64,000 nt of DNA from Photobacterium sp. CCB-ST2H9 (lineage in GTDB: Bacteria; Pseudomonadota; Gammaproteobacteria; Enterobacterales; Vibrionaceae), in contig NZ_CP100425.1 in the NCBI RefSeq assembly GCF_023151555.2, positions 1,302,001-1,366,000 of the forward strand, written 5' to 3'. The notes beneath the pieces were generated by a model. The model was not told the origin of the DNA. It worked only from the letters and a program-made list of their open reading frames with translations, and did not search any database. The position numbers and the translations under genes are program-made. This document shows positions 33,020 through 57,465 of this stretch, one piece after another; position 1 is the first letter of the stretch, and each line of letters starts with the position of its first letter.

Positions 33020-33550
33020 ATGCTGCACTTTGAAATGTTCTCTACAGAAGAGCTTTTGGCTTTTGCTGCGCTTGATCTTGAAAATGACAACCTTTTTCAA
33101 GGCATGGAAAAGCTGAAGCATTTAAAAAATAATCAGGTTGAATCAGACGAGTTGGATTCAATGTTAGGCAGCGTTTATGCAAAGCTTCAGTTATTTCATC
33201 AAGCGGTTGAGCATTATTCTGCATTGCTGGAAAGAACACCTTCCCGCCTGCATGAAAGATTTCAGCTGGGAATGGTATACCGGGAAATGAATGAGCTGGG
33301 TAAAGCCGCAGAATGTTGGGACGGTGTGCTGGACGTTGAAGAAAACTATCCGCCTGTTCTTTTTCATAAAGCATTGTTACTCATCCTGACCGGCGAAGAG
33401 GTCCAGGCCAAATCACTGCTGCAACAATTAGTCGCGACAGCAGAAAGCGATAATTATTACGTGGAACGAGCGCTCGGTGTTTTAGAGGAAATTTCGGCTG
33501 CGTCGCAAGAGCCGACACCGGTGACCCAAAAACTTGACCAGGTTCATTGA
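33020..33550 (+). CDS. TPR-repeat protein A, head of the flagellar-like cluster
   Basis: 176 residues of helical repeats (LGSVYAKLQLFHQAVEHYSA, FQLGMVYREMNELGKAAECW). The ATG at 33020 is chosen for the GAGG site 5 bases upstream; the frame opens at a GTG at 33005. A disordered tail ends it. It resembles in plan the TPR protein at 52983 (FQLGIAYFWRGDFSEAESLW), so the flagellar-like genes are bracketed by two related TPR proteins. Possible roles are export chaperone or assembly scaffold. The 214-base gap before it carries no gene and probably a promoter. Confidence 0.75.
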   Translation: MLHFEMFSTEELLAFAALDLENDNLFQGMEKLKHLKNNQVESDELDSMLGSVYAKLQLFHQAVEHYSALLERTPSRLHERFQLGMVYREMNELGKAAECWDGVLDVEENYPPVLFHKALLLILTGEEVQAKSLLQQLVATAESDNYYVERALGVLEEISAASQEPTPVTQKLDQVH

Positions 33551-33556
33551 TAGTAA

Positions 33557-34687
33557 GTGATGACGATGTCCCTTCAGCGATTAAAAGAATTTCTTGAAAT
33601 GGATCCATCCAATGCGTTGCTGGCCCTTGATTTGATTGGGGGCTTAGCGAAGCAGGGAGACTTCCGGGCAGCGATGCAAATTGTTGATCAGTCACTGGGA
33701 CTGAATGATGATCATGCAGATTTTCTGAGTTGGAAGGGGCACTTATGTCTGGCTTTAAATCAGTATGATGACGCCGTTCAGGCCTATCATGACCTGTTCC
33801 GTCGCGGTTACGCTCAGCCGGGTCTGAAAATTAATTGTGCACTGGCCTGTTTTCAGACCGGAAAGTATGAAGCGGCTTATGAGTTGCTGGCGCAGATTCC
33901 TGAACTTGATGTGGCAAATACGCTGCTGAAAGCACGTTGCCTGGCGCATTTAGAAAATAACTCGCAGGCGATTGCAGAAACGTATCGTTTACTCACAACG
34001 TGTACGCCGGAACAACACGCTGAAGTTCACGGACTGCTGTCCTTATTGTATCTGGATGATGCGCAGTATGAACTGGCTGAAAAGCATTGCCGCACATCGT
34101 TGCAGCTGGACAACAGCCAGTGTGATGCTTTGATCACCAGCGCTAGTTTATCTCTGTACCGACTGGAGACGGAAATGGCGTTAATCATCCTGGAACCATT
34201 ACTGGCACAGCATCCGGAAATGGGACGCCTGTTGGCGATGAAGGCGCTGTCATACATGTATGCCCACCAATTCGATGCTGCGATTCAATGGTATGAAAAG
34301 GCGTGCCAAAAAATGCCAGGACATGTTGGCAGTCGGGTGAACTTAGGCTGGTGTTATTTTTCGGTGAAGGATTATGACCGTGCCGAATCCTGCTTCAAAG
34401 AAGGTCTGAAAACAGACCGGAATTTTGCTGAATGTCATGGCGGTCTGGCAATCGTGAATGCTGTCCGGGAAAAATGGTCAGTTTCACAGGAACAACTGAA
34501 GCGGGCCCTGAAGTTAGATGCCAATTGCCCGTCTGCATTGTTTGCAAGGGCGCTATATTTACAGGTGAAAGGGAAAACCAAAGAGGCAGACTCGATTATG
34601 TCAGGACTGATGGCATTCAAATCGGACCTCAGCGTTGAAAATCTGTCGGAAGCGATGAAAAAAATAATCCTGAGTCGTCAGCCATAA
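33557..34687 (+). CDS. TPR-repeat protein B, 376 residues
   Basis: About nine tetratricopeptide repeats through the whole length (examples: LLSLLYLDDAQYELAEKHCR, WCYFSVKDYDRAESCFKEGL), no signal peptide or membrane helix. The start may be GTG 33557, ATG 33560 or ATG 33566; none is decided by a ribosome site. It begins 6 bases after TPR protein A and ends 1 base before fliQ, so it is co-transcribed with the export genes. A chaperone or adaptor role for exported proteins is likely by position. Confidence 0.78.
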   Translation: MMTMSLQRLKEFLEMDPSNALLALDLIGGLAKQGDFRAAMQIVDQSLGLNDDHADFLSWKGHLCLALNQYDDAVQAYHDLFRRGYAQPGLKINCALACFQTGKYEAAYELLAQIPELDVANTLLKARCLAHLENNSQAIAETYRLLTTCTPEQHAEVHGLLSLLYLDDAQYELAEKHCRTSLQLDNSQCDALITSASLSLYRLETEMALIILEPLLAQHPEMGRLLAMKALSYMYAHQFDAAIQWYEKACQKMPGHVGSRVNLGWCYFSVKDYDRAESCFKEGLKTDRNFAECHGGLAIVNAVREKWSVSQEQLKRALKLDANCPSALFARALYLQVKGKTKEADSIMSGLMAFKSDLSVENLSEAMKKIILSRQP

Positions 34688-34688
34688 A

Positions 34689-34952
34689 ATGGACAAAGAT
34701 GCTGCCAGCTACTTATTAAGTGAATTAATGCATGTGGCTTTTATTATTTGTGGTCCAATTTTGCTGGTTGCATTGGTCGTTGGATTAATTATCAGTATCT
34801 TGCAAGTGGTAACACAGATACAGGAAATGACATTAACTTTTGTGCCGAAAATGATTGCAGTCGCACTTGTGATTATGCTGATGTCGAATTGGATGCTTGG
34901 GGTATTAACGGAGTTTGCAATCAACATATTTGATTATGCGGCGAGTTTGTGA
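34689..34952 (+). CDS. fliQ: Flagellar-type export gate protein FliQ
   Basis: 87 residues with two membrane helices (VAFIICGPILLVALVVGLII and MIAVALVIMLMSNWMLGVL) and the family's ISILQVVTQIQEMTLTFVPK middle. Part of the FliPQR core of the type III export gate. The stop overlaps the GTG start of fliR. Confidence 0.95.
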   Translation: MDKDAASYLLSELMHVAFIICGPILLVALVVGLIISILQVVTQIQEMTLTFVPKMIAVALVIMLMSNWMLGVLTEFAINIFDYAASL

Positions 34953-35731
34953 CACTGAATGCTATTTTAAGTGACTGGCAATCTTATACGATTGTATTTT
35001 TTCTGATTCTTTTAAGAATTACGCCTGCTTTAGTGTTCAGGAGTATTAACCCATTGTCGATGTTACCGCCATTTATAAAAATGGTGGTCACCGTTGTGAT
35101 TGGTGTGATTATTTTTACTCATACCATCGATCAAAATTTAATAATACGCGCTGTGCATTTAGAGGGTACGGCATTGGCGGTAGCGTGCCTGAACGAGTTC
35201 TTTATTGGTCTGGTTTTCTGGTTCGCCTTGGTTGTCACCTACGGTGCAATATTTACGTTTCTGAAATTGCTCGATATGCAGGTAGGTTTTAATCCGATGG
35301 GGATTTTTAACCCGGCGATGCAGGAATCGGAACCAATTCTGACCCGGGCAATTATCATCTTTATCTCATTGATGTTTTTTGTCACCAACGCGCATTACAC
35401 TGTGATTGAGTTACTTGCAGCATCCATCCGGTCTTTTCCGATCCTGTCAGGTCCCGGCGAACCGCAGCTGGACATGATGATCGCGTTATTTTCATCACAG
35501 ATGGTTCTGGCATTTCTCCTGGCACTGCCCGTGATGATTGCTATTTTTTGGGTTGATCTGCTTTTAGGGCTTTGTAATAAAATGATGCCTCAAATCAACA
35601 TTTACTTTGTTGGTTTACCCGCAAAAACTGCTGTCGCCTTCCTGATTCTCGGAATTTCTTCCAGACATGTCAGTGAAATTACAGACAGGCTGTTTGATGG
35701 TGTCTTTTCATACTGGCTTTCGCTTTATTGA
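34949..35731 (+). CDS. fliR: Flagellar-type export gate protein FliR
   Basis: 260 residues, usual length, several membrane helices. The family segments RITPALVFRSINPLSMLPP near the N terminus and MQVGFNPMGIFNPAMQ in the middle are visible. It starts at a GTG overlapping the fliQ stop. FliR joins FliP and FliQ in the export gate and contacts FlhB, encoded next. Confidence 0.94.
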   Translation: MTLNAILSDWQSYTIVFFLILLRITPALVFRSINPLSMLPPFIKMVVTVVIGVIIFTHTIDQNLIIRAVHLEGTALAVACLNEFFIGLVFWFALVVTYGAIFTFLKLLDMQVGFNPMGIFNPAMQESEPILTRAIIIFISLMFFVTNAHYTVIELLAASIRSFPILSGPGEPQLDMMIALFSSQMVLAFLLALPVMIAIFWVDLLLGLCNKMMPQINIYFVGLPAKTAVAFLILGISSRHVSEITDRLFDGVFSYWLSLY

Positions 35732-35741
35732 GGGCAACGGG

Positions 35742-36791
35742 ATGGCATCAGAAGAAAAAACAGAAGAAGCAACACAGTATAAATTGCAGCAAGCGAAGCA
35801 AAAAGGGCAGGTCTCCAAGAGCATGGATGTCAATGCTTTCGCTGGCTTGCTGATTACATTGGTCACAGTTCTGTTTATTGCCAAAGAAATTGGCGTGCAG
35901 CTGATGGCGGTGATGCAAAACGTTTTCCTGATGGCGCCAGACATATCGGTACAAAGTGACAGCTGGCTGATCGGGCAGATTTTTGAATCTTATATCTATG
36001 CCACGATGCCTGTTTTGCTGTTGGCGATTTTAATTGGCGTCATTGTTAATTTCATACAAACGGGTGGGATTTTCAGCTTTCATCCGATAAAGCCGGATAT
36101 CAAGAAAATCAATCCGATTCAAGGGTTTAAGAAGTTATTTTCTTTAAAGTCTTTGTTTGAGCTGGTGAAAAATCTGCTCAGGCTGTCATTGGTTTCGGTA
36201 CTGGCGTATATGATTTTCTATGATGAGATATTTACATTACCGGATTCAATCAGCTATTCGTTGTCAGGCACACTGGATAAGGTCAATGCCCTGCTGATTC
36301 AAACCATTGTCTTTTTTATTCTGGCGATGGTTCCTTTTACCCTGTTCGATCTGATATTTCAGCGCTGGTCTTTTCGCAAAGAAATGCGGATGTCGAAAAA
36401 AGAGGTGAAAGATGAATATAAAAATCAGGAAGGTGATCCGGAAATCAGGTCGAAAAGGAAACAAATTCAGAAAGAATTGCGAGGAAAGCTGGGCGCACTT
36501 TCAAACGTTCCTTCAGCGGATATGGTGATCACCAACCCGACCTTTGTTGCGGTTGCACTGAAATACGATCCGAAAACAATGACCGCGCCCAAAGTCGTCT
36601 CCAAAGGGAAAGGGCAGCTTGCATATCAGATCAGGAAAACAGCCCGTCATCATCAGGTTGTGATGAAAACCAATATTCCGCTTGCTCGCGTGCTGTATCA
36701 AAAAGTGAAGATCAACGCTGAAATACCGCCAGAGTTATATGATCAGGTTGCCGAGATTTACCGCTGGTATTTCAATACTCAACATCAATAA
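35742..36791 (+). CDS. flhB: Export gate switch protein FlhB with NPTF in place of NPTH
   Basis: 349 residues from ATG 35742 (MASEEKTEEATQYKLQQAKQ, the family's canonical start); a longer open frame from 35667 overlaps fliR and is rejected. Four membrane helices precede a cytoplasmic domain with SKKEVKDEYKNQEGDPEIR. FlhB/SctU proteins cut themselves between Asn and Pro of NPTH to switch substrate from rod/hook to filament. Here residues 265-268 are NPTF: the cleaved Asn-Pro is kept but the His is Phe. This may slow or alter cleavage and thus substrate switching. The flanking VAVALKYDP is normal. Confidence 0.95.
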   Translation: MASEEKTEEATQYKLQQAKQKGQVSKSMDVNAFAGLLITLVTVLFIAKEIGVQLMAVMQNVFLMAPDISVQSDSWLIGQIFESYIYATMPVLLLAILIGVIVNFIQTGGIFSFHPIKPDIKKINPIQGFKKLFSLKSLFELVKNLLRLSLVSVLAYMIFYDEIFTLPDSISYSLSGTLDKVNALLIQTIVFFILAMVPFTLFDLIFQRWSFRKEMRMSKKEVKDEYKNQEGDPEIRSKRKQIQKELRGKLGALSNVPSADMVITNPTFVAVALKYDPKTMTAPKVVSKGKGQLAYQIRKTARHHQVVMKTNIPLARVLYQKVKINAEIPPELYDQVAEIYRWYFNTQHQ

Positions 36792-36814
36792 AGTGATAAA
36801 CCAAGGAACTCATC

Positions 36815-38848
36815 TTGTTTAAGCAATATATGCTGAAGGACTGGCATAGTAATTTATTTATCATCGGTGTTGTGTTGATTCTGATGGTGATATTTTTGCC
36901 GGTTCCGCCTGGAGTGCTGGATTTCCTTCAGATTATCAACTTCAGCGTTGCACTCTTAATTCTGTTACTGACGTTTTGTACAGATAAGCCACTCAGCTTT
37001 TCAACGTTTCCATCCATTATTCTGATTGCAACGTTGTTCCGTCTCTCACTGAACATATCTGCAACGCGTTTAATTCTGAGTGAAGGTGAAGCGGGGCACG
37101 TGATTGGCGCCATCGGTGAATTCGTGGTTGCTGGAAACTATGTGATTGGTTTTATAGTTTTCATCATTCTTGTTGTGGTTCAGTACGTTGTTGTAACCAA
37201 TGGTGCGCAGCGTGTGGCGGAAGTCGCGGCCAGATTTACCCTGGACAGTATGCCCGGTAAACAGATGGCGATTGATGCCGACATGAATATGGGCCTGATT
37301 GATGAACATGAAGCCCGGGAAAGGCGCTCGAATATCGAACGGGAAGCAAACTTTTATGGGGCGATGGACGGCGCCACAAAGTTTGTCAAAGGTGATGCGA
37401 TTGCCGGCATTATTATCATTCTGATCGATATTATCGGGGGAGTGTCTGTCGGGGTCGCGCAGCACGGGATGAAGTGGGGAGAAGCCCTGACGAAATATTC
37501 TCTCCTGACGGTCGGTGACGGGATTGTCACGCAAATCCCTTCTCTGATTATTGCGGTGGCCACCGGCATCATTATTACCCGGGCAGCCACAGACTATGAA
37601 CTCAGCCGCGAGATTGGCCGACAGGTTTCATCACACCCCCGAACACTCATTCTGGTGACGCTGGCGCTGGTGCTGGCACTGTTTCTTGATGGCTTACCGA
37701 CGATGCCGATTTTGCTTGCGATCGGGTTGTTTGGCGGTTGTGTCTGGTGGGCAATCAAGTCTAATCACGTGATTGAGGTCCACGATGCGGAATCGGAAAG
37801 CAAAGATGATCTCGTGGATTACATCAAGATTCATCCCATTGAAGTGCGTCTCGGGAAGGATCTGAAAAAGAATATTGAATCCGGCAACTGGGCACTGGAT
37901 AAGCGCCTGGAAGCCCTCAAGAAACTGGTGGCGAAAGACTTCGGCTATATTCTGCCGGATATTCAGTTCAAGGCGGACAGTGAGCTGGATGCGGATCGCT
38001 ATGAAATCCATATTCACGGCTCCCGCATCGGAAAAGGTCAGATTCAAAGCAATCGAATTATGGTGATCAGCGCCCCTGAGATCCTGGCGGAAATGACCGG
38101 GGAAGCTACCAAAGAGCCGGCTTATGGTTTACCGGCGCTCTGGATTGACGACACCATGCGGTCATTTGCGAAGAGCCGCTCCTGTACAGTCGTTGAGCCC
38201 GAGATGATTATTTTCACGCATATTTCAGAAGCGATTAAAAATAATCTGCAGGATGTGCTGTCCCGAAAAGACGTCGAACAAGTGTTAAACCGGTTAAAGC
38301 AGGACAATGCGTCTCTGGTCGAAGAAATTGTGCCTCAGCTCCTGAGCATTTCTGACCTGCACCGTCTGCTCAGACTCTTACTGAGCGAGAAGGTCAGCAT
38401 CCGTCATATTGAACTGATTCTCGAAGCGGCGTCTGAGCATGCGAGTGCTGAAGATAAAAATATTGAAAAACTGGTTGAGAAAGTCCGGGAACGATTAGCA
38501 CTTCGGCTCTGTGACCGTTATCTGGACCCCGAAGAGCATTTGAACGTAATCACCATGACGCCGCAACTGGAGTCCATGCTCAAGCGTGCAATCGGCGGCG
38601 ACAGCCATGATGGTCAGATTGCTCCGGGCGAAGTTGAGTCTGTGCTTCAGCAACTGGTCCGTCAGTGTGAAAACGTGATGGAAAAAGGTCTGGAACCTGT
38701 GTTGCTGTGCTCCGGTACCCTGCGAGCGCCGCTTCGGAAAATCACCGAGCGAGTGGTGCCAAGGCTGGCGGTGATATCTGCGCAGGAAGTGAAGGGCATC
38801 AAGCTGATCCGGACCGTTGGTCAGCTCACGCATGGGGAAAGCCGTTAA
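36815..38848 (+). CDS. flhA: Flagellar-type export gate protein FlhA
   Basis: 677 residues, near the family norm. About eight membrane helices fill the first half, with the FHIPEP-type loop region (AARFTLDSMPGKQMAIDADM, DEHEARERRSNIEREANFYG), then the cytoplasmic nonameric ring domain. It starts at a TTG with AAGGA 7 bases upstream. FlhA forms the export gate's proton-using ring and docks chaperone-cargo complexes. Ends directly at flgF (no gap). Confidence 0.96.
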   Translation: MFKQYMLKDWHSNLFIIGVVLILMVIFLPVPPGVLDFLQIINFSVALLILLLTFCTDKPLSFSTFPSIILIATLFRLSLNISATRLILSEGEAGHVIGAIGEFVVAGNYVIGFIVFIILVVVQYVVVTNGAQRVAEVAARFTLDSMPGKQMAIDADMNMGLIDEHEARERRSNIEREANFYGAMDGATKFVKGDAIAGIIIILIDIIGGVSVGVAQHGMKWGEALTKYSLLTVGDGIVTQIPSLIIAVATGIIITRAATDYELSREIGRQVSSHPRTLILVTLALVLALFLDGLPTMPILLAIGLFGGCVWWAIKSNHVIEVHDAESESKDDLVDYIKIHPIEVRLGKDLKKNIESGNWALDKRLEALKKLVAKDFGYILPDIQFKADSELDADRYEIHIHGSRIGKGQIQSNRIMVISAPEILAEMTGEATKEPAYGLPALWIDDTMRSFAKSRSCTVVEPEMIIFTHISEAIKNNLQDVLSRKDVEQVLNRLKQDNASLVEEIVPQLLSISDLHRLLRLLLSEKVSIRHIELILEAASEHASAEDKNIEKLVEKVRERLALRLCDRYLDPEEHLNVITMTPQLESMLKRAIGGDSHDGQIAPGEVESVLQQLVRQCENVMEKGLEPVLLCSGTLRAPLRKITERVVPRLAVISAQEVKGIKLIRTVGQLTHGESR

Positions 38849-39529
38849 ATGGACAAAATTTCAGGTATCGTGATGTATTCCCTCAGCCGCGATATGAACA
38901 CGGTCAATCAGATCAGTACCAATACCCAACATGTGACGACTACCGGGTTTAAAGCATTACTGGCCTCTGATGACGCGGGGAAGAACCAGACGAAAACAGC
39001 GGGGCAGATTATTAACCTGTCGCAGGGAGAGCTGAAACAGACGGGGCGTAATCTGGATTTTGCCATTCAGGGGACGGGATGGTTTGTCCTGAAGTCAGGC
39101 AAAACCGTGGCGTTGACCCGCAATGGCCAGTTTCAGCTCGACGGTGCGGGTTATGTCGTGGATAGCCGTGGGTTTCGGTTACAAAGTCAGAATGGTGATA
39201 TTCAGTTCGACAGCACCAGTATTCATGTGAATTCTGAAGGGAAAATTTCGGATCCCAGCGGGAATACTGAAGAATTAATTCTGGTACAGGTCGGCGAAAT
39301 AAATCCGGAACAATATCATCAGGGACATATTATTTACGAGAAAATGCCAAGGCTTGATATTGACAGTCAAAGTCAGATTTTACAGGGATATCTGGAGCAA
39401 TCCAACGTTGATTCCGCTTCAGAAGTAGTCGAGTTGATGACGGCAAAACGCCACATTCAAACCATGCAAAAAACATTAGCGGCATACGATCAGGTATTAA
39501 AGAAAACCATCAGCGAATTAGGAAAATAA
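38849..39529 (+). CDS. flgF: Flagellar rod protein FlgF-like
   Basis: 226 residues. The N-terminal rod helix is recognisable but altered (STNTQHVTTTGFKALLASDD where NxANxxTPGFKA is usual). The middle TRNGQFQLDGAGYVVDSRGF is the classical rod/hook segment and the C terminus has GYLEQSNVDSASEVVELM. Proximal/distal rod subunit exported by the type III gate. Starts one base after the flhA stop. Confidence 0.85.
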   Translation: MDKISGIVMYSLSRDMNTVNQISTNTQHVTTTGFKALLASDDAGKNQTKTAGQIINLSQGELKQTGRNLDFAIQGTGWFVLKSGKTVALTRNGQFQLDGAGYVVDSRGFRLQSQNGDIQFDSTSIHVNSEGKISDPSGNTEELILVQVGEINPEQYHQGHIIYEKMPRLDIDSQSQILQGYLEQSNVDSASEVVELMTAKRHIQTMQKTLAAYDQVLKKTISELGK

Positions 39530-39530
39530 G

Positions 39531-40295
39531 ATGATTGAAGCGCTGTCCAATGCAGAAATGGCACTCAGAACTCAACAAAAATATATCGACATGATTTCCA
39601 ACAACGTCTCCAACATTAATACGCCAGGGTATAAAGCGAGTACGCCGGTTTTCAATAGTCTGCTGTCCAGCACTACATCTGTTGAAGGTGCTGAGCGTAA
39701 TCTTTCGGTTGGTGGCGGTGTTGAAATAAAAGATGCGATCTTTCGATTTGTTGATGGCGAGTATAAGTACACGGCGTCGCCGCTTGATCTGGCGATTCAG
39801 GGGAATGGCTTGCTTGAGGTCGAACTGGATAATGGTGAAACCGCCTACACGCGTGTTCTGTCCTTGCGCAAGCTGGAAGATGGCGCACTGGCAACCGTAC
39901 AAGGACACCGCCTGGCAGCCAATATCATTGTTCCGCCTGATGTTGAAGAACTGAAAGTTTCCGGCGATGGCACGGTGTTCGGAAAGATCCAGGGGGAAAG
40001 TGACATGCTTGAACTGGGCCAGCTTGAACTCACTGTTTTCGATTCATTTGAAGCATTAAAACCGGGCTCCGGCGGTGTGTGGTATCAGACGGAGGCAGCC
40101 GGAAAAAGACAGTATTTAGTCCCGGGAGAAGACGGTGCGGGCACAATTTTGCAGGGATATACCGAAATGTCGAACGTCAATATGATCGATGAAATGGTGT
40201 CTTTGATGGCTGCCCAGAGAGCGTACCAGTTAAATTCAAGAGTTATTCAGGCCAGTGATCAAATCTTAGAAACGATTAATAACTTAACCCGTTAA
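39531..40295 (+). CDS. flgG: Flagellar distal rod protein FlgG
   Basis: 254 residues. It has the typical N-terminal MISNNVSNINTPGYKASTPV and the C-terminal GYTEMSNVNMIDEMVSLMAA with QRAYQLNSRVIQASDQ. The middle is compatible with FlgG, although TRVLSLRKLEDG replaces the usual TRxGxFxxDxxG. Distal rod that traverses the P and L rings. One base after flgF. Confidence 0.92.
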   Translation: MIEALSNAEMALRTQQKYIDMISNNVSNINTPGYKASTPVFNSLLSSTTSVEGAERNLSVGGGVEIKDAIFRFVDGEYKYTASPLDLAIQGNGLLEVELDNGETAYTRVLSLRKLEDGALATVQGHRLAANIIVPPDVEELKVSGDGTVFGKIQGESDMLELGQLELTVFDSFEALKPGSGGVWYQTEAAGKRQYLVPGEDGAGTILQGYTEMSNVNMIDEMVSLMAAQRAYQLNSRVIQASDQILETINNLTR

Positions 40296-40306
40296 TTGTT
40301 CCGGTT

Positions 40307-40975
40307 ATGATTCAACAAATATTTTCTGTAAGTCTGGTTTTCATTTTATTTTCTCCCGGTGCATTTGCCGGTTTAAAAGAACCGCTGAGTTATCTTTCTG
40401 ATTATTTATTTACGCAAGGCTACGATAATTTCGTCATCAATAAAGCGGGCGCGCATCCGGACATTGATGATGGATATCAGTTTCAGAAGATTGAATGTCG
40501 TTTTGAAATTCATCGCTGCCGGGTCGTTGTTGAACATCCATCGGCTGAGGGGCACGTGAAAACACAGTCACTGTGGTACATCATCAGCAGTCAGCAGTTA
40601 GGCTGGGAAGCAAAACGCAATATCAGGCAGGGAGAGGCCATCAGCGATGATGATTTCATCTGGCGTATGACAGATGCATTTTCCTGTAAGAATCAATTAG
40701 CCAAAACAGATGATATGACCCGGAAACCCGTTGCGGTGAGAAAAATAAAATCGGGTCAGGCCTTATGTGAATATGACCTGGAAAAAGGAATGGATGTTCA
40801 GAAAGGTGATTTTATCACTCTGGTCAGCCGTTCAGATTCATTCGAGATCACGTTGAAAGTCAAGGCATTATCCAAGGGAAACAGAGGGGAAACGGTGAAA
40901 GTCAGAATTCCCGGTTCGGGAACAATGCTTGATGCAGCGGTCGTCTCTTCAGGAAAAGTGGAGTTAGTCAGGTGA
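40307..40975 (+). CDS. flgA: P-ring chaperone FlgA
   Basis: 222 residues with a signal peptide ending GAFA, so periplasmic. A SAF-type domain is visible (VRKIKSGQALCEYDLEK, then GDFITLVSRSDSFEI). FlgA helps assemble FlgI in the periplasm; flgH and flgI follow at once. The stop overlaps flgH by 4 bases. Confidence 0.88.
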   Translation: MIQQIFSVSLVFILFSPGAFAGLKEPLSYLSDYLFTQGYDNFVINKAGAHPDIDDGYQFQKIECRFEIHRCRVVVEHPSAEGHVKTQSLWYIISSQQLGWEAKRNIRQGEAISDDDFIWRMTDAFSCKNQLAKTDDMTRKPVAVRKIKSGQALCEYDLEKGMDVQKGDFITLVSRSDSFEITLKVKALSKGNRGETVKVRIPGSGTMLDAAVVSSGKVELVR

Positions 40976-41550: not shown

Positions 41551-41552
41551 CG

Positions 41553-42683: not shown

Positions 42684-42765
42684 ATATCAGTTGATATTTT
42701 ACGAATGCCATAAAGAAAATAGGCCCTAGGTTAAATTCCGATGGGCATGATAAAAGGATGTTTCA

Positions 42766-43786: not shown

Positions 43787-43789
43787 AAA

Positions 43790-48876: not shown

Positions 48877-49285
48877 CGTAACGCAATCCCAATCTGCGAC
48901 ACAGCTGAATGCTGCGCTCGGACAAGACGATTTTATTAAATTGTTCATGTCTCAGTTGAAGGCACAGGATCCGTTGGAGCCGGTCAATAATCAGGACTTT
49001 CTGGCACAGATGGCCCAGTTTTCATTGCTTGAATCCAGCCGGATGGCCAATGAAGAATTAAGCCAAATCAGGCAACTGGTTGAATCGACGCAAGGCGTCG
49101 GTCTGATGGGAAAGTTTGCTGAAACACAATCAGCCAACGGCAGTATTTTAGGTGAAGTTGTTTCCGTCGGATTTACACAAAATGGCACTGTCGTCAGCCT
49201 GAAGATTAAAGATGAAAATGGTCAGGATTATTATGTCAATGACCTGCCTGTTACGAAATTAAGCCGGATTTATTCTGGCGAATAA
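48854..49285 (+). CDS. flgD: Hook cap (scaffold) protein FlgD
   Basis: 143 residues, shorter than the usual 220-230. The conserved N-terminal part DFIKLFMSQLKAQDPLEPVN, DFLAQMAQFSLLES is unmistakable; then comes GEVVSVGFTQNGTVVSLKIK, a partial tudor/Ig-like part. The FnIII half present in long FlgDs is missing. Caps the growing hook. Confidence 0.93.
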   Translation: MAIPPVGSVTQSQSATQLNAALGQDDFIKLFMSQLKAQDPLEPVNNQDFLAQMAQFSLLESSRMANEELSQIRQLVESTQGVGLMGKFAETQSANGSILGEVVSVGFTQNGTVVSLKIKDENGQDYYVNDLPVTKLSRIYSGE

Positions 49286-49301
49286 CCTCAAAGGATAGAG
49301 A

Positions 49302-50444
49302 ATGTTTCAGTCTTTTTATAATGGCTTGTCCGGAATGCAGACAAGCTCAAAGGCGCTGGATATTGTCAGTGATAACGTCGCGAATATGCAGACGCCGGGT
49401 TTTAAAGCCAAAGATGTATTTATGACGAGCGTGAATGGTGGCGGCAAAGGATTAGGTTCTCAGGTTGCGGAGTCCGGTCACCGATACACCAATGGCGAAG
49501 TCGCACAAACCGGAAATAATACGGATGTGTTTCTTGATGGCCGGGCATTATTTGCGCTCAAAGATGGCGGTAATTATTACTACACCCGGGCGGGAATGTT
49601 CACGCTCAATGACCAGGGGGTTCTGGTTGACCGGCTCTCCGGATTTGAAGTTGTCGGCATTGATGATGCCGGACGCCTGAGTCCGATTCAGGTCGGTTCA
49701 AATGATGTGATTCCTGCGGTTCCCAGTACGTCGGTCTCGATTAAAGGCGAGATTTCGACCAAAGATACCAGCGTCGAGTTAGAAAAGGTCCACTACGTCG
49801 CCAGTGATGGCAGCCATCAGCAGCTCAGCGTGTCTCTTGAATATGATGAAGCTTCAGAGAGCTGGGCGGTCAGTGTGAAAGATTCAGACGGTAATGAAGT
49901 GGGGACAGGCAGCCTGGAGTTCGACCTTGGCGGGACACTGAAGGTCGGAAAAAATGAAGTGGCTGCGACGCTCGAGGATGGGCAGGCGCTCAAGATTAAA
50001 TTTGGGGAAGCGGGATCATTAGCCGGCGTGACGCTCCGAAATGAAAATGAAGAGTCCAGCCTCAGCCTTGATGCGGTGGATGGTTCTGGCGAGTCACCTT
50101 TTTCAGACATCAGTCTGACCAATGATGGCCGGGTGGTTCTGCAATACGGCAACGGCGAACAAAGAGAGATTGGCACCATTGGTGTCGCGAAAGTGGAAAA
50201 CTATAGCCATTTTCGTGTGAAAGAGGGCCATCTTCTGGAAACGCAGGAAAAACCGGAAATCTTGCAGATTGGCCGCGGACTGGATGCAAATCTGATTGCC
50301 GGGGCCATCGAATTATCGAACGTAGATTTGGCGCAGGAGTTTGGCGATATGATGGTGATTCAGCGATCCTACCAGGCCAGCTCCCGCGTTATGAGTGTGT
50401 CGAATCAACTGATTGAACAACTTTATAACAGCACGGGAAGTTAA
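49302..50444 (+). CDS. flgE: Hook protein FlgE
   Basis: 380 residues. N-terminal FYNGLSGMQTSSKALDIVSD and VANMQTPGFKAKDVFM; central TRAGMFTLNDQGVLVDRLSG; C-terminal ELSNVDLAQEFGDMMVIQRS. All hook landmarks are present, so an outer-surface hook-like tube can be built. AAGGA lies before the ATG. Overlaps the fliM-like gene by 1 base. Confidence 0.93.
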   Translation: MFQSFYNGLSGMQTSSKALDIVSDNVANMQTPGFKAKDVFMTSVNGGGKGLGSQVAESGHRYTNGEVAQTGNNTDVFLDGRALFALKDGGNYYYTRAGMFTLNDQGVLVDRLSGFEVVGIDDAGRLSPIQVGSNDVIPAVPSTSVSIKGEISTKDTSVELEKVHYVASDGSHQQLSVSLEYDEASESWAVSVKDSDGNEVGTGSLEFDLGGTLKVGKNEVAATLEDGQALKIKFGEAGSLAGVTLRNENEESSLSLDAVDGSGESPFSDISLTNDGRVVLQYGNGEQREIGTIGVAKVENYSHFRVKEGHLLETQEKPEILQIGRGLDANLIAGAIELSNVDLAQEFGDMMVIQRSYQASSRVMSVSNQLIEQLYNSTGS

Positions 50445-51160
50445 TGAACAGTCCGCAAATTCAGCTCAATCATGATGTCATTTCAGATTATCTGCTTGCT
50501 TCGTTTCAACGGGCATTTCAAGCGTTAGGCAGTCATGCCTGTTTATCCGTAGAAAGAAGAAATCCCGCTCAAGTGAAGACGGCGGATATGTACACGTCGG
50601 GATTTCATGATCTTCCGGGTGTGGAGCTGTTCTATAACGCTGATTTTGCGTCTTTGCTGATGCGCAGAAGATTTGGCGACAAGGTGAATCCCTCAGCTCA
50701 TGAAGACCCGTTTGCACGACATGTGATTCAACACTGGCTCCTCGACTGGTTTAAAAAAGAGGAACTGCTGTGGGATGCTTCAGAGCAAGATGATCAATCG
50801 GCCTGTTTTCGGTTTTGTGCTGGCGAAGCTGAAATCCTGTTGAGTTTATCTCAGTCTGTTCAGAAGCGGATTCTGACACAGAAGCTGTCACTGGATTTAA
50901 AGAAACGGCCGGATCAGCGCCAGGTTTTGTCGGCTCTTGCTGATTCTCCTGTGAAATTATCCATTGAATTACCGATAATTACGACAACGGTTGAAAAGGT
51001 TCGCCTGTTAAAGCAGGGAGATGTTCTAAAAACGAATCGAAAAATTAATGATGGTCTGATTCTGAAGTTGGATCATCAGGTCATATCAAATCATGTTTTT
51101 GTTTCTTTCGAAAATGGTGAAGCAAGCTTAATTGTTGGGAGTGTTGCAGATGAGCGTTGA
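50444..51160 (+). CDS. fliM: Short FliM-like C-ring protein with SpoA domain
   Basis: 238 residues; flagellar FliM has about 330. The C terminus (LSIELPIITTTVEKVRLLKQ, then LDHQVISNHVFVSFENGEAS) is a SpoA domain as in FliM/SctQ. The N terminus (MNSPQIQLNHDVISDYLLAS) lacks the LSQxEIDALL peptide that binds CheY-P, and no GGxG-type FliG-binding motif of the middle domain is seen. It therefore resembles non-flagellar SctQ more than a switch protein. Overlaps fliN by 11 bases. Confidence 0.75.
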   Translation: MNSPQIQLNHDVISDYLLASFQRAFQALGSHACLSVERRNPAQVKTADMYTSGFHDLPGVELFYNADFASLLMRRRFGDKVNPSAHEDPFARHVIQHWLLDWFKKEELLWDASEQDDQSACFRFCAGEAEILLSLSQSVQKRILTQKLSLDLKKRPDQRQVLSALADSPVKLSIELPIITTTVEKVRLLKQGDVLKTNRKINDGLILKLDHQVISNHVFVSFENGEASLIVGSVADER

Positions 51161-51425
51161 ACTGAAGAAAAATATTGAATCATTTTCTGAGAAAGTGTCT
51201 TTAGATACCTTTTCCAATATAGAGGTCAGCCTTGATGTTTTAATCGGTGAAATTAAAACTGATATCGGCTCTCTGATGAATCTTTCTGCCGGAGATATTC
51301 TGAAATCGGATGTGAAAATCTCAAACAAGATCGATCTGAACCTGAACGGAAATAAAATCGCTGAAGGGATTCTGGTGGAAGAAGACGGCTACTTTGCATT
51401 ACAAATTGTGAGTGTCAGCGGATGA
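51150..51425 (+). CDS. fliN: C-ring protein FliN
   Basis: 91 residues from the ATG at 51150. The SpoA core NIEVSLDVLIGEIKTDIGSL, MNLSAGDILKSD, LNLNGNKIAEGILVEEDGYF is canonical FliN. It forms the base of the C ring and binds FliH. Overlaps fliO by 4 bases. Confidence 0.92.
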   Translation: MSVELKKNIESFSEKVSLDTFSNIEVSLDVLIGEIKTDIGSLMNLSAGDILKSDVKISNKIDLNLNGNKIAEGILVEEDGYFALQIVSVSG

Positions 51426-51685
51426 TTTTCAAAGAGGTGGACTCAGTGCTCACCCCCGGATATTTCCTGCTGATTATTTTTCTGATTCTGACTCTGATTC
51501 TTGTGACCTGGTATAAAAGGAATAATGCTCATAATGAGGGGAAATTAAATAGCAAAGTCAGGGTGTTGGAAAAGGCGTTTTTAGATAATAAGACTAAAAT
51601 ATTTGTGATTGAGTATGAAGGAAGTAAACATTTTATTGTTTCAAACTCAACATCTGTTTCAGTATCTCAAAAAATAGAAAGTTAA
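51422..51685 (+). CDS. fliO: Flagellar export assembly protein FliO-like
   Basis: 87 residues: one membrane helix (YFLLIIFLILTLILVTWY), then a short cytoplasmic beta-rich tail (RVLEKAFLDNKTKIFVIEYE). Size, topology and place between fliN and fliP match FliO, which chaperones FliP assembly. Confidence 0.8.
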   Translation: MIFKEVDSVLTPGYFLLIIFLILTLILVTWYKRNNAHNEGKLNSKVRVLEKAFLDNKTKIFVIEYEGSKHFIVSNSTSVSVSQKIES

Positions 51686-51714
51686 TTTTTATGTTCAACG
51701 GGAACATCATTTAG

Positions 51715-52347
51715 ATGGATATCGATCTTACGCATCCAATTGTTCAGTCATTTTTCTTATTAACTGCTTCGGCTTTTATACCTGTGCTCTTGGTATCCGC
51801 AACCTGTTTTACCAGATATGTCATCGTTATTTCTCTGTTACGAACAGCTTTGGGACTACAACAAACACCACCCAATATTGTTGTGATTTCAATTGCGCTG
51901 TTCATGAGTATTTTTACCATGGCGCCAGTGTATCAGGATGTAAAATCCGTCTCTTACGATAAGTATCTGTCTGGTGATATCACTCAGCAGGAAGCGATTG
52001 AAAAAGGGATTGACACATTTTCTGAGTTTTTGATTTCAAAGACTTCAGAGAAGGATTACTACTTTGTAAAAAGTCTGAACAGTCAGCAGACAGAGAATGA
52101 GACATTACTGGAACTGACCACTCTGATTCCAGCTTTTATGCTGAGTGAGCTGAAGGCCGCGTTTCAATTTGCATTTGTGATTTTCTTACCTTTTCTCCTG
52201 ATCGACCTCATCGTTGCAAGTGTCCTGATGGCCTTGGGTATGATCATGTTGCCGCCCATTTCCATATCACTTCCGATTAAGTTGCTCATTTTCGTTTTGA
52301 TTGATGGTTGGACTTTACTGGTTGGAAGCCTGATCAGAGGCTTTTGA
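51715..52347 (+). CDS. fliP: Flagellar-type export gate protein FliP, SctR-sized
   Basis: 210 residues. The FliP/SctR signature is clear: RYVIVISLLRTALGLQQTPP, LFMSIFTMAPVYQDV and ALGMIMLPPISISLPIKLLI. Flagellar FliP is usually about 245 residues with a cleaved signal peptide; here there is none, as in virulence-type SctR. No separate gate gap is missing, so the export core FliP-FliQ-FliR-FlhB-FlhA is complete. Ends 6 bases before the sigma factor gene. Confidence 0.95.
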   Translation: MDIDLTHPIVQSFFLLTASAFIPVLLVSATCFTRYVIVISLLRTALGLQQTPPNIVVISIALFMSIFTMAPVYQDVKSVSYDKYLSGDITQQEAIEKGIDTFSEFLISKTSEKDYYFVKSLNSQQTENETLLELTTLIPAFMLSELKAAFQFAFVIFLPFLLIDLIVASVLMALGMIMLPPISISLPIKLLIFVLIDGWTLLVGSLIRGF

Positions 52348-52353
52348 TTTTTC

Positions 52354-52974
52354 ATGAATGAAGTCATTGAGCTCAATACGGCACCCGAATCTGATGATGA
52401 GAAGACGAAAGATAAGCTTGTCAGCTGGGAAAGTGTCACGTCTTTACTGCCCTGGTGTGACATTATCGCGAAGCAATTTGTGATGAAACATAAATATAAT
52501 CACGAGATTGATTTTGATGATTACAGGAATATCGCCGTCATCGCACTTTATGATGCCTTGAGCCATTTTGATGCCAGAAAAGGTTCATTGAAATCCTACT
52601 GTTTTACGTATATGTATCATGAAATCAACCGGTGTCTGATGAAGTCAAACAGTTATCTCTTTAAGAAAGTCAGTATTCATGCTGAAGATGTTTCCGGCAC
52701 AGATATGATTGAGGAATCTCCTGGTTTTTATACTTTGTCTGCCAGGTTGAATGGTAACAGAGATGAGGAGGAACATGATGAGGCGGCAGCATTCATTTAT
52801 ATTGACAGATACTTCTCAGAACTCAGTCATGATAAGCAGAAAGTTATCGTAGAACATTATTTTAACGCAGTTTCACTGAAAGAATTAGCGGCCCGGATGA
52901 GACGCACGCCTTCAAGAATCTCTCAAATTCATCAGAGTGCGCTGAAAGAACTCAGCAAAAAGTTAAATTCATAG
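52354..52974 (+). CDS. fliA: FliA-like sigma-28-family sigma factor
   Basis: 206 residues. Region 2 is seen in IDFDDYRNIAVIALYDALSH, FDARKGSLKSYCFTYMYHEI, and region 4 in LSHDKQKVIVEHYF, SLKELAARMRRTPSRISQIH. It should direct promoters specific to this cluster or distant genes. Unlike typical systems no flgM anti-sigma gene is in the window. Being the last canonical gene of the set, it may give positive feedback. Confidence 0.82.
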   Translation: MNEVIELNTAPESDDEKTKDKLVSWESVTSLLPWCDIIAKQFVMKHKYNHEIDFDDYRNIAVIALYDALSHFDARKGSLKSYCFTYMYHEINRCLMKSNSYLFKKVSIHAEDVSGTDMIEESPGFYTLSARLNGNRDEEEHDEAAAFIYIDRYFSELSHDKQKVIVEHYFNAVSLKELAARMRRTPSRISQIHQSALKELSKKLNS

Positions 52975-52982
52975 GATCAACG

Positions 52983-53621
52983 ATGGATAGTCAATTAAAT
53001 TATCAAGAAATATTAGGATTAGCCGTACATGCAGTACACAATCAAGATCTCGTGACTGCACTTGAGCTTTGTAAACGAGTTAATAAAGACAATACGCCTG
53101 ATCAGGCTCTGAACTTAATTCATGCCGCCATTCTGAATCAAATTGGCATGTTTTCAGCGTCTGTCGATATTTATCAAACTGTGATCTTCAATGAACCAGA
53201 AAATCAGCTGGCAAAATTTCAATTAGGAATTGCTTACTTTTGGCGAGGAGACTTCTCTGAGGCTGAAAGTCTCTGGGGCGACTTGCCTTATTTTGTGAAT
53301 TTTACGGCTGCCTTGCTGGAAGCGAAGCGGAAAAACTATACCGAAGCGGTTCGATGCCTTCAGGCCTTTATGGCAGAAAATACAACGTATCCAGATTTAA
53401 ACACGGATGCTTTCAATTTAGTGGAACAATTCCAGAAAATGATTTCAGATGCGCAAGCTGAGCAGTCGGCTTCTGCGGAAAGGACTTCCCGACCAGCCGA
53501 TCAGACATCCACACAGAATGAAGCCGCGTCACCTCTCAGCCATCAGGAACATTCAAAAGACGTTCCTGCCACTTCACTGAAAGATGTCAATGCACTCTTA
53601 TCGATTTATAAAGATGACTAA
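52983..53621 (+). CDS. TPR-repeat protein C
   Basis: 212 residues: about four TPR-like units in the first 160 (HAAILNQIGMFSASVDIYQT, FQLGIAYFWRGDFSEAESLW), then a Ser/Gln/Thr-rich disordered linker and a short C-terminal helix (SLKDVNALLSIYKDD). Resembles TPR protein A at 33020. Tail helices of this sort often dock partners. Begins 8 bases after the sigma factor gene. Confidence 0.75.
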   Translation: MDSQLNYQEILGLAVHAVHNQDLVTALELCKRVNKDNTPDQALNLIHAAILNQIGMFSASVDIYQTVIFNEPENQLAKFQLGIAYFWRGDFSEAESLWGDLPYFVNFTAALLEAKRKNYTEAVRCLQAFMAENTTYPDLNTDAFNLVEQFQKMISDAQAEQSASAERTSRPADQTSTQNEAASPLSHQEHSKDVPATSLKDVNALLSIYKDD

Positions 53622-53644
53622 ACCAGGCGTGAGAGGGTAATTGG

Positions 53645-54979
53645 ATGGAAACAGTACCGGTTCAGCTCAGAAAAAAATCATGTATTCATTTATGGTCAGC
53701 ACCATCGGTTGATGCTGAAGCATTTCATTATCATGTCAGCGGAGAGGGTGAGTTTCTGGAAGGGAGAGCGGATCGCTACGGCATGCTGGGGTCTGGTCGC
53801 TGTGCGATTGTGAATGGCGGGCTAGTGAAAGGCGTCGGACCGACCCCTTTGGTCAATCAGGAACGACATTTCTATTCGACTGGCGGATTGATCATTACAG
53901 ATGCCGTGATCGAAGTGATTTACCTTGAAGCCATTTCGCGATTGATTCCAGATGCCATTAAACCCTTATCCGTTTCTTTTACCGATCAGATGGAAGAAAT
54001 CAATCTCGAGTCCGCACTGGAAGCCGGGTACGATTTAGATGAGGTGCCGCTGGAAAGGAAAATTGATCACGGTTGTCTGCTTACCAGAGAAATCCCTGTT
54101 CGGGTTGCCCATCTTTATCCGATGAATTTAACGCGTGAAGAGATACTGAACTTTTTGGTCACGCATAATCCTGAAATTGCAGATGCCAAACCGTGTTTCA
54201 TCATTCAGAAATTTATCCGGAAGGTTTCAGATAATCTGGCGATTTTATTTATGAATCGTTTTTCTGTCGGGACAACGGCCATCAGTAATTTCAGTATTCA
54301 TGGTGTGCCTTTTGACGTCGCTTCAAGTTCATTTTTACGTGATTTCCGAAACTGCTGGATTGCAAGCGGGAAAATTCCGGTCTGGGAAGAAAACAGGTTC
54401 ATCCTGAATGAGCTGGTTGCGTATATTGTCGATTTTCTGGGCATTTTTGATATCAATCATATTGATGAAGCGGTCGAGATGATTGATGAAACTTACGATA
54501 AGCTCGACTGGATCTGGGAATCTTCTCTGAAACGTGCTTCGTTACTGATGTTTGGTTTAACGCTGGAAGAGATCGACCAGCTGGATGAGGCGTCTGCAAT
54601 GCCGCTTCAGAACGCGATTCTTGCTTATCTTCAGAAAGATACGCTGGAATACGATTTATATGATGGTGATATAGCGGACTGGCGCGCGCCCAAATGGGTG
54701 GGGCTGAATTTTGAGGACGAGTTTCCTCGGTTACTGAAGGAGGGTATCCCTACTTCATTTGAGCCGCTGAATCAGGCGTTCAAAGCCTTTGATTTCGGTT
54801 TCACGGATGAACACATTCGGCGGTGTCAAAAAATCTGTGCTTCCCGTTTGCCGCTGACCAATGTGCCCACACTGGAATTGAAACTTCGTAACCTCCGAAA
54901 CGTCAGTGGTGATATCAATCTGGACGGTTACCGTGAAGTGCTGGATGAAGCACTGGCCTATCTGGATGTCATGATTTGA
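53645..54979 (+). CDS. Divergent SelO-like (YdiU-fold) protein
   Basis: 444 residues. The segment LGSGRCAIVNGGLVKGVGPT followed by HFYSTGGLIITDAVIEVIYL resembles SelO's LGDGRA ... LKGAGxTPYSR ... GDGRAVLRSxIRExLxSEAM region, with Lys62 in the place of SelO's ATP lysine and a downstream Glu. Further on, RFSVGTTAISNFSIHGVPFD compares with SelO's GxxHGVMNTDNMSLxGxxxDYGP: the Asn and the last Asp are kept but the Asp of TDN is not. SelO transfers AMP to proteins. Activity here is uncertain. 23 bases after the TPR gene; likely the same operon. Confidence 0.55.
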   Translation: METVPVQLRKKSCIHLWSAPSVDAEAFHYHVSGEGEFLEGRADRYGMLGSGRCAIVNGGLVKGVGPTPLVNQERHFYSTGGLIITDAVIEVIYLEAISRLIPDAIKPLSVSFTDQMEEINLESALEAGYDLDEVPLERKIDHGCLLTREIPVRVAHLYPMNLTREEILNFLVTHNPEIADAKPCFIIQKFIRKVSDNLAILFMNRFSVGTTAISNFSIHGVPFDVASSSFLRDFRNCWIASGKIPVWEENRFILNELVAYIVDFLGIFDINHIDEAVEMIDETYDKLDWIWESSLKRASLLMFGLTLEEIDQLDEASAMPLQNAILAYLQKDTLEYDLYDGDIADWRAPKWVGLNFEDEFPRLLKEGIPTSFEPLNQAFKAFDFGFTDEHIRRCQKICASRLPLTNVPTLELKLRNLRNVSGDINLDGYREVLDEALAYLDVMI

Positions 54980-55041
54980 TTTGTCAGCATCCCGCCTGAT
55001 GACAATCAACAATAGATGCTGGCTGGCTTACCGAGTGAAAT

Positions 55042-56220
55042 ATGCGCGACTTTATCGAAATTCTTATCATCACCTCATCAGCGATCACCTGCCTGATGGC
55101 AATCATCCTGCTGTTAACTTATCTCATCCGGAAACCGGAGGAACTGCCATCTGAATGCTTGCCTGCTGTGACTGTGTTTGTTCCTTTTTTTAATGAGGAG
55201 CAGTCTGTGCTGATTAAAACATTAGACAAGCTGGAGCAGCAGGATTACCCGAGTCGCATTCAGGTGTTACTGATTGATGATGGTTCAACGAATGATGCCT
55301 CTGCGGCGGTGCTGTCCTGGTTAAAAACAACCCGGAAGCATCGCTACGCGTATTTGCGGCGGGAGAAAAACGGAGGGCGCAAGGGATATGCGCTGGATTA
55401 TGCCCTTGAATCGGGGTTAGCCGAAGGGGAGATCTATGTGGTGGTCGACAGTGACACTTACATTGAACCTGACGGTATTCTGGAGTTAGCCCGAAAGATC
55501 TGGAGTGATGAACGCTATGCTGCTGTTTGCGGCTACATTGCCCCGGAAAATCACCAAAGTTCGCTGCTCGCGAAATTACAGCATTATGAACATATTGGTT
55601 ATTACGGCGCGATTCGCTGTGCACAGGATAAGCTTGGCATGGTGCCAGTACTGGCGGGAGCCTTTGTCGCGCACCGTGCTGAAGTCGTCAAAAAAATCGG
55701 TGGCTGGAGTGAATGGCTTGTTGAAGACATTGCCTGGTGCTGGCGGGCCATCGCACATCAATACCGAACTGGTTATGCGCCACGGGCCGTGGCGAAAACG
55801 CAGTGTCCAGTGACGCACTCCGGATTATTTAATCAGCGCAGACGCTGGGCCCGGGGTCGAGTGGAAGCATTTTCAGCAGCCTGGCATGTATCCCCGTGGT
55901 CTGGTGTTGCCTCGACCCCCTGGTTTTTAATCACCACACTTCAGTATATTTTTCCGCCGGGTTTACTGTTAATTCCTGTACTGATTTATCTGAATATTCT
56001 GTTACCACTGGTCCTGGGCTGCTTTACTTTGCTCATTTATTTGCTGCTTTATCAATGTTATGCACGGCATTACCGAAATCAGGTCACTCAGACCCATCGG
56101 GGATTGCTGTCTATCGCTTTTGCAACCATGTTGCTGGAGCTGATTGTGTGGTTTCCCAATGTTCTGGGTTATCTGGATGAACTGATGGGGAAAAAGAAAA
56201 TGTGGTTAACCCGGTCGTAA
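55042..56220 (+). CDS. Membrane GT2-family glycosyltransferase
   Basis: 392 residues. One N-terminal helix (residues about 7-28) and several C-terminal helices (about 285-375) surround a cytoplasmic GT-A domain with VFVPFFNEEQS, LLIDDGSTND, VVDSDTYIEPDG, the acceptor-site EDIAWCW and QRRRWARG. The D, D, D, QxxRW set is that of processive enzymes such as PgaC/cellulose synthase. Product unknown. Overall it ends the run of same-strand genes from 29451; it may make or modify a surface glycan linked to the apparatus. Confidence 0.88.
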   Translation: MRDFIEILIITSSAITCLMAIILLLTYLIRKPEELPSECLPAVTVFVPFFNEEQSVLIKTLDKLEQQDYPSRIQVLLIDDGSTNDASAAVLSWLKTTRKHRYAYLRREKNGGRKGYALDYALESGLAEGEIYVVVDSDTYIEPDGILELARKIWSDERYAAVCGYIAPENHQSSLLAKLQHYEHIGYYGAIRCAQDKLGMVPVLAGAFVAHRAEVVKKIGGWSEWLVEDIAWCWRAIAHQYRTGYAPRAVAKTQCPVTHSGLFNQRRRWARGRVEAFSAAWHVSPWSGVASTPWFLITTLQYIFPPGLLLIPVLIYLNILLPLVLGCFTLLIYLLLYQCYARHYRNQVTQTHRGLLSIAFATMLLELIVWFPNVLGYLDELMGKKKMWLTRS

Positions 56221-57463: not shown

Positions 57464-57465
57464 GC

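Follow-up and report, generated by a model that had tools for sequence, protein, structure and literature searches.

A flagellum-derived gene cluster of Photobacterium sp. CCB-ST2H9 as a likely exporter of giant Rhs/YD-repeat proteins

The genome of Photobacterium sp. CCB-ST2H9 (5.17 Mb in three contigs) harbors, within the 64,000-nucleotide stretch analysed here (the window, C1:1302001-1366000), a run of flagellar-type genes and, before it, a gene for a giant Rhs/YD-repeat protein. Sequence comparison makes it quite probable that this cluster encodes a non-rotary type III secretion system (T3SS) that derives from a flagellum and likely exports giant Rhs/YD-repeat polymorphic toxins. This reading is carried by the anatomy of the cluster, two whole genomes with neither a flagellin nor a second FlhA, a truncated FliG, a single-clade origin, a tight linkage to the giant gene and the depletion of cysteine in its product. 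With less assurance, it seems fairly likely that such hook-ended, ring-equipped, non-rotary exporters with their own sigma factor represent a third functional type III class besides the flagellum and the injectisome, delivering some of the largest bacterial polymorphic toxins in antibacterial warfare among beta- and gammaproteobacteria. The preliminary description of this DNA had proposed a flagellum-derived, non-rotary structure for secretion or at the cell surface. This is in agreement with our analysis, as no cognate flagellin, junction protein, stator or full-length FliG was found with the cluster. The gene for the giant Rhs protein (12205-28794) lay outside the part of the window covered by that description and was missed there; as it is a consistent partner of the cluster, secretion is likelier than a mere surface structure.

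Anatomy of the cluster and its missing parts

The 25 flagellar-type products are encoded by a single + strand run of mostly overlapping genes (34689-52974) in the order FliQ-FliR-FlhB-FlhA-FlgF-FlgG-FlgA-FlgH-FlgI-FlgB-FlgC-FliE-FliF-FliG'-FliH-FliI-FliJ-FliK-FlgD-FlgE-FliM-FliN-FliO-FliP-sigma, flanked on both sides by genes for tetratricopeptide repeat (TPR) proteins. The same-strand fliQ-to-fliA set of the preliminary description was recovered in its place through Pfam/NCBIfam matches and, for some genes, by position; all protein-coding genes of the window given individual coordinates here are on the + strand. The export gate characteristic of a flagellar-type T3SS is complete, comprising FliQ (34689-34952; PF01313, E = 8.8e-26), FliR (34949-35731; PF01311, 2.7e-39), FlhB (35667-36791; PF01312, 2.8e-111), the 677-aa FlhA, which served as the family marker (36815-38848; PF00771, 1.9e-226), and FliP (51715-52347; PF00813, 2.4e-69), together with the FliI ATPase (46196-47518; PF00006, 2.2e-70). 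The P-loop of FliI is intact (AGSGVGKST) and was kept in the seven clusters checked. The NP-T region of FlhB reads NPTF in the window where many relatives (66/80 FlhB open reading frames, ORFs) have NPTH.

The rod, hook and P/L rings (FlgB-I) are present as well. FlgF (38849-39529) and FlgG (39531-40295) carry FlgE/F/G domains and are followed by the P-ring chaperone FlgA (40307-40975; PF13144, 5.5e-22), the L ring FlgH (40972-41550; PF02107, 6.1e-38) and the P ring FlgI (41535-42683; PF02119, 6.8e-106). A reduced, FlgB-like proximal rod protein of 110 aa (42766-43098) was named by its position, which is syntenic in the family of related clusters described below, and by a weak NCBIfam FlgB match (E = 0.083); the other proximal rod protein, FlgC, has 138 aa (43095-43511; PF06429, 5.3e-05; TIGR01395, 1.8e-05, below cut-off). 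The hook cap FlgD is short (143 aa, 48854-49285; PF03963, 1.2e-16), and the hook FlgE (49302-50444) was identified by a family match. The basal parts include FliE (43511-43786; PF02049, 2.6e-15), an MS ring FliF of 458 aa (43790-45166; PF01514, 9e-41; PF08345, 6.4e-10), FliN (51132-51425; PF01052, 4e-14) and a FliM-like protein of 238 aa (50444-51160) recognisable only by its C-terminal SpoA domain (PF01052, 6.4e-06) and a profile of six members. The calls of FlgC, FliH (45550-46212, start placed inside the ORF at 45439; NF009925, 3.1e-08), FliO (51422-51685; TIGR03500, 3e-05) and FliA/WhiG all score at or below the curated cut-offs. FliJ (147 aa, 47499-47942) and the FliK-like ruler (330 aa, 47923-48876, start placed inside the ORF at 47884) gave no informative family match and were named by position and synteny. 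The last gene of the run (52354-52974) encodes a sigma-70-family factor of 206 aa (TIGR02937, 2.2e-17, over cut-off), which appears FliA/WhiG-like by its place and its best named match (FliA_WhiG TIGR02479, 7.7e-13, below cut-off).

The reduction of FliF, FliM, FlgD, FlgB and FlgC noted earlier is evident from the lengths given above, and FliG also appears to be truncated. The FliG place in the window (45138-45557, start placed inside the ORF at 45114) was assigned through a family profile of 28 members, which aligns with the N-terminal and middle domains of FliG and stops before the torque domain. Pfam FliG_C was found in 1/28 of these members (E = 0.037), the search covering the FliG-place members and not the carrier genomes. 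The FliF of relatives has a C-terminal helix resembling a FliG-binding tail.

The filament, junction, stator and chemotaxis genes, reported earlier as not seen, were indeed not found: flagellin, FliD, FlgK, FlgL, FlgJ, FliL, Mot, FlgM, FlgN and Che gave 0/50 Pfam matches among the window ORFs, a scan that left out ORFs under ~80 aa and could miss a tiny FlgM or FlgN. The MotA/MotB search was likewise confined to these 50 ORFs and did not extend to the carrier genomes. The whole-genome search for Flagellin_N gave five matches, at C1:889-893 kb, 1476 kb and 1518 kb, and none within 1302001-1366000. The search for separate flagellar systems proposed earlier revealed two further FlhAs of a different lineage in this genome, with flagellin genes with or near them. 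A working motile flagellum borrowing its filament and stator from these other systems can thus be imagined from a genome with three FlhAs and flagellins elsewhere, but it is scarcely credible, since the FliG lacks the torque domain and since G120 (100% complete) and G410 (97%) each contain one FlhA, belonging to this family, and no flagellin domain genome-wide, leaving no flagellin to borrow. In view of these two genomes, which were searched for FlhA and flagellin but not for FliG or Mot, the earlier suggestion that the missing parts could lie elsewhere in the genome fails as an explanation for the family.

FlhA lineage, distribution and gene order

The FlhA phylogeny was inferred from 100 sequences with an IQ-TREE quick search that included no injectisome SctV, and several long rows were flagged in it, among them L002, L161 and G120. 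The phylogenetic check called for in the preliminary description placed the 80 family FlhAs in one separate clade, on a stem of 0.98 changes per site and with a Shimodaira-Hasegawa-like approximate likelihood ratio test (SH-aLRT) value of 100. The window FlhA groups with those of Grimontia and Enterovibrio inside this clade; the other two FlhAs of the window genome and the second FlhAs of G036, G144, G367 and G446 fall outside it. Against the ordinary FlhA family, the other two FlhAs score 897 and 809 bits vs. 754 bits for that of the window. A further FlhA of G036 is split into two adjacent ORFs (G036:C1:1377159-1379149) and is perhaps the remnant of a broken lateral flagellum.

Within the genus the family is carried by 2/52 genomes, and among 148 relatives it was found in four, namely G000, G036 (96% identity), G144 (68%) and G120 (51%). 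The family profile reached at least 1051 bits in 4/369 evenly drawn genomes of the class, the next best score being 762, and this sample added the carriers G367, G446 and G410. A scan of 84,980 named-species genomes with one degenerate FlhA pattern yielded 297 confirmed relatives, the best 80 of which were kept; three of these 80 loci (L114, L148 and L172) were taken as the same as G144, G367 and G410. The carriers among the best 80 of 297 include Grimontia celer, Enterovibrio baiacu, Motilimonas cestriensis, Xanthomonas, Pseudoxanthomonas, Dyella, Hahella, Pleionea, Variovorax, Ramlibacter, Undibacterium, Massilia, Duganella, Collimonas, Herbaspirillum, Ralstonia and Paraburkholderia, among others. 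Family-like or related clusters also occur in metagenome-assembled genome records labelled Bacteroidota, Acinetobacter, Sphingomonas and Planctomycetota (L128, L161, L163 and L191), which may reflect binning error or transfer.

Examination of the neighbourhood in related genomes, as had been proposed, showed the same order of all 14 checked genes in 61/80 loci and of FliQ-FliR-FlhB-FlhA in 78/80. The remaining 19 loci include some on short contigs, a few in which one call, such as FlgA, is missing, and the more distant L182 and L191; in five Oxalobacteraceae (L135, L160, L177, L181 and L185) the FlgD-to-sigma half is placed before FliQ. The clusters of Variovorax beijingensis, Dyella ginsengisoli, Hahella sp. 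HN01 and Grimontia celer each contain FlgD, FlgE, FliM, FliN and FliP and then the first codons of a giant; the sigma factor was recognised in three of these four clusters, and a TPR gene likewise in three. The operon is consistently accompanied by the giant Rhs protein and two or three TPR proteins, and usually by the sigma factor.

Judging from this gene order, kept across many genera, the cluster is not a lone relic. Decay of a lateral or secondary flagellum could account for the reduced FliG, FliM, FliF and FlgB and for the interruption of the giant and SPASM genes in G036, but relics are not expected to converge on one gene set, and the recurrence of the same reduced set and order over many genera renders this explanation very unlikely.

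The giant Rhs/YD-repeat protein and its link to the operon

The proposed main cargo, a Rhs/YD-repeat protein of 5,529 aa encoded at 12205-28794, showed Pfam RHS_repeat matches (E = 1.5e-87 and 4.9e-39), DUF6531 at aa 30-101 and similarity to the solved Rhs proteins 7q97 (E = 1.4e-22) and Tse5 (8cp6, E = 1.8e-11). It consists of a conserved N-terminal domain (aa 1-~100), YD motifs at aa 13-1931 and 3561-4673, a hydrophobic segment at ~4861-4895 and a variable C-terminal end. The first ~40 residues of the carrier giants are strongly alike, with no classical signal peptide apparent by eye, and their C-termini differ between genomes; the C-terminal 180 aa of the window giant gave no informative family match. 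Between the two Rhs blocks of the window giant lies a YD-free, Ala/Lys-rich stretch of ~1,600 residues with a strong AT skew (aa 1931-3561, window 17995-22887).

The giant open frames of named carriers often span 4,000-9,000 codons, with a maximum of 15,898. The longest was observed beside the operon in Solimicrobium silvestre (L189, G561:C5:162263), and that of Undibacterium flavidum has 12,805 codons. In G120 the operon lies between two giants, of 5,204 and 6,386 aa. Giants also flank the operon in G367 and G410, both being cut (that of G367 by the contig end), and in G144 the C-terminal part of the giant is at a contig end. In G446 residues 1-46 were matched at the extreme end of the contig that carries the system, and a giant without its first 45 residues starts at the end of another contig. 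ORFs named by eye as reverse-transcriptase-like, transposase-like and HipA-like are located between the end of the giant and the operon of G144 (L049:2136-9400).

The giant is tightly linked to the operon. Its N-terminal domain scored at least 100 bits in 4/4 carriers and 0/365 non-carriers of the class sample (hypergeometric 1.3e-9, the carriers being related to each other and the query having been built from carriers), with weaker matches in 32/365 non-carriers (best 99.2 bits). Among named carriers it was matched in 48/50, reaching at least 100 bits in 47/50. Sequence comparison showed that giant and operon share a contig in 34/39 loci checked. In 33/34 of these the nearest end of the giant is 4-28 kb from FlhA, which usually puts it immediately beyond the operon, and in L144 the distance is 46 kb.

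The cysteine content of the giants resembles that of the axial proteins. In seven clusters, cysteine makes up 0.00-0.04% of the rod, hook and cap proteins and 0.15-1.7% of most other parts, among which FliN (0.00%) and FliF (0.06%) are low-cysteine exceptions. The giants of the first genomes contain 10 cysteines per 26,054 aa, and 38 carrier giant fragments contain 19 per 30,814 aa (0.06%), compared with 119 per 14,449 aa (0.82%) in 16 other Rhs fragments. Values of 1.12%, 0.75% and 0.41% were obtained for three giants of non-carriers whose N-terminus is related. As far as composition goes, the carrier giants correlate with the make-up of axial substrates and the three non-carrier look-alikes do not; secretion into an oxidising space could be an alternative cause of the low cysteine content.

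The genes behind the giants bear on the target. An ORF of 162 aa (28767-29255) overlaps the stop of the window giant and is a candidate immunity gene by position, without a family match. SUKH immunity genes occupy this position after the giant in Grimontia (L112; SUKH-1, E = 2.8e-12) and in Pseudoxanthomonas (L115), where the gene (SUKH, 4.9e-21) stands behind a giant with a terminal WHH nuclease domain (1.5e-9); the candidate of L161 gave a weak YezG-like match (E = 0.011). The SUKH genes behind two giants suggest that the target is probably rival bacteria. The same secretion machine may instead act mainly on eukaryotic cells, or its cargo may serve as an adhesin, which we regard as a possible though less favored outcome. 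Rhs-like shells are also present in Tc toxins, and the C-terminal end of the window giant, matching no family, would accommodate such roles, but the SUKH genes together with the WHH nuclease end suggest toxins harming the producer's own kind.

Several observations weigh against the proposed export of giants as antibacterial toxins by this machine. For the giant of the window itself no immunity family was matched, and 3/6 immunity candidates tested in other genomes gave no match. The giant of G036 is interrupted into two ORFs, a clear giant was missing in 3/50 named carriers (none in G547 and G557, a weak one in G562), and in 5/39 loci checked the giant was on another contig. Cysteine was also absent from 4/16 of the other Rhs fragments. 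A promoter-like motif, TAAAC-N14-[CG]NGGA[TC], was found within 350 bp upstream of 19/38 carrier giants, 0/38 at each of 12 wrong spacings and 0/7 non-carrier giants, but its letters were fixed after viewing the same sequences, so that 19/38 is not an independent test; it first stood out in three Dyella sequences (16/35 without them) and was missing in front of the giants of the window, Grimontia, G120 and G367. Finally, giants with a weaker related N-terminus (27-99 bits) occur in G151, G321, G427, G453, G171 and G239, in which no FHIPEP gene was found (some of these genomes being incomplete), and in G176 such a giant lies beside an ordinary-looking flagellar locus. The N-terminal domain alone therefore does not define this export route. 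The related giant open frames at L206 and L207 (G427 and G321), L209 (G151) and L204 (G239) measure 3,288-4,251 aa, with no type III gate gene found; that of G176 (C1:174634-196953), ~20 kb from the flagellar locus, has 4,000 aa and 1.12% cysteine, and its N-terminus is matched weakly.

These related giants of genomes in which no gate was found imply that another exit exists for such proteins. They would fit a filament-less hook-basal body acting as a surface or envelope structure for adhesion, sensing or membrane anchoring, with the giant as a fellow traveller using another export route, and the rod, P/L rings and hook are in keeping with such a structure. This explanation appears improbable to us, as the giant is linked in 34/39 loci and 47/50 genomes, the carrier giants are depleted of cysteine like axial substrates, and the cluster retains the full gate, the ATPase and a gene at the position of the ruler.

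Proposed export path, comparison with known systems and neighboring genes

In the favored reading of a non-rotary exporter, the machine would comprise an export gate, an ATPase, an MS ring with a stub C ring, a rod, P and L rings and a hook, with no filament and no motor, and would push giant toxins unfolded from the cytoplasm to the outside in one step via the rod-hook channel. The operon's sigma factor may turn on the giant gene, as suggested by the motif present in about half of the relatives, though not in the window. TPR proteins could hold or deliver the giant; injectisomes use TPR chaperones. TPR protein a (33005-33550) and TPR protein b (33557-34687), both candidate cargo chaperones, were matched in 5/6 (not G120) and 6/6 of the other clusters read, respectively, and TPR protein c (52983-53621) in 6/6. 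From the parts present, the rod and hook would then be built and FliK/FlhB would switch specificity, whereupon the conserved N-terminus of the giant would be recognised and the chain threaded out, the giant being sent in flagellin's place after hook completion. The Rhs repeats would presumably fold outside into a shell carrying the variable C-terminal toxin end to the target, probably rival bacteria.

The cluster shares with polar and lateral (Flag-2) flagella the gate, ATPase, MS ring, rod, P/L rings, hook and a FliA-like sigma factor. It differs in that no filament, junction, cap, stator or chemotaxis genes were found with it, in a FliG without the torque domain, in its separate FlhA clade and own gene order, and in its linkage to the giant Rhs gene. 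Like the injectisome, as portrayed in the relevant parts of Abby and Rocha (2012, PMC3459982), it seems to be a flagellum turned secretion machine with its motility parts lost. However, it keeps the FlgE hook, the FlgG/F rod and the FlgH/FlgI rings; no secretin domain was recognised among the scanned cluster proteins, FlgH and FlgI being present instead, and no needle, tip or translocon protein by Pfam in the cluster, although fast-evolving parts could be missed. Its proposed cargo also differs, being polymorphic toxins whose open frames mostly have 4,000-9,000 codons and reach 15,898. The 'Myxo' T3SS of Myxococcales is likewise a filament-less, motor-less type III machine, but according to those same parts of the source it is without FlgBCDEK, FliE, FliG, FlgH, MotAB and an outer-membrane channel, whereas the present cluster keeps FlgB to FlgE, FliE, FlgH and FlgI.

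The giants resemble described Rhs/YD-repeat polymorphic toxins (Zhang et al., 2012, PMC3482391) in their Rhs repeats and probably also in a variable C-terminal end and, in Grimontia and Pseudoxanthomonas, in the SUKH genes behind them. The sections of that study dealing with export name the type II, V, VI and VII secretion systems (T2SS, T5SS, T6SS and T7SS), PVC, TcdB/TcaC, PrsW and PyocinS as routes, and raise flagellar delivery as a question for one RNase near Firmicutes flagellar operons; unlike the toxins described there, the giants sit with a flagellum-type exporter. No account of this filament-less flagellar system was found in literature searches. If the proposal holds, the flagellum has become a weapon twice, once as the injectisome and separately here, where it kept the hook and P/L rings and took no secretin; evolutionary biology would thereby gain a second worked example of an exapted flagellum. 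The proposal would also provide a possible exit route for the giant Rhs proteins encoded in Variovorax, Massilia, Undibacterium, Dyella, Hahella and their relatives, and pose the question of how proteins of 5,000 to 16,000 residues can travel through a channel made for flagellin.

Among the neighboring genes that the preliminary description had counted with the system, the TPR genes stood as consistent partners, whereas the radical SAM, GT2 and 53645-54979 genes are local extras, being present in G000 and G036 and unmatched in the other five clusters read. These accessories comprise a SPASM-domain protein (29451-30611; two ORFs in G036), a radical SAM and SPASM protein (31114-32805; family match), a protein of 444 aa (53645-54979) and a family 2 glycosyltransferase (GT2; 55042-56220; PF13641, 8.9e-20). 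The 444-aa product had been called SelO-like, a label that found no backing in Pfam, NCBIfam or PHROGs. On the 3' side of the operon (56696-63998) are a DUF1266 protein, a 952-aa DnaJ-domain protein and an Hsp70 gene, 0/3 of which were matched within the 58 kb of G036 read. On the other side, a tRNA-Ser(tga) at 9673-9763 adjoins a low-GC stretch (34%, 10-12 kb) just before the giant, a zone that is possibly the edge of an island.

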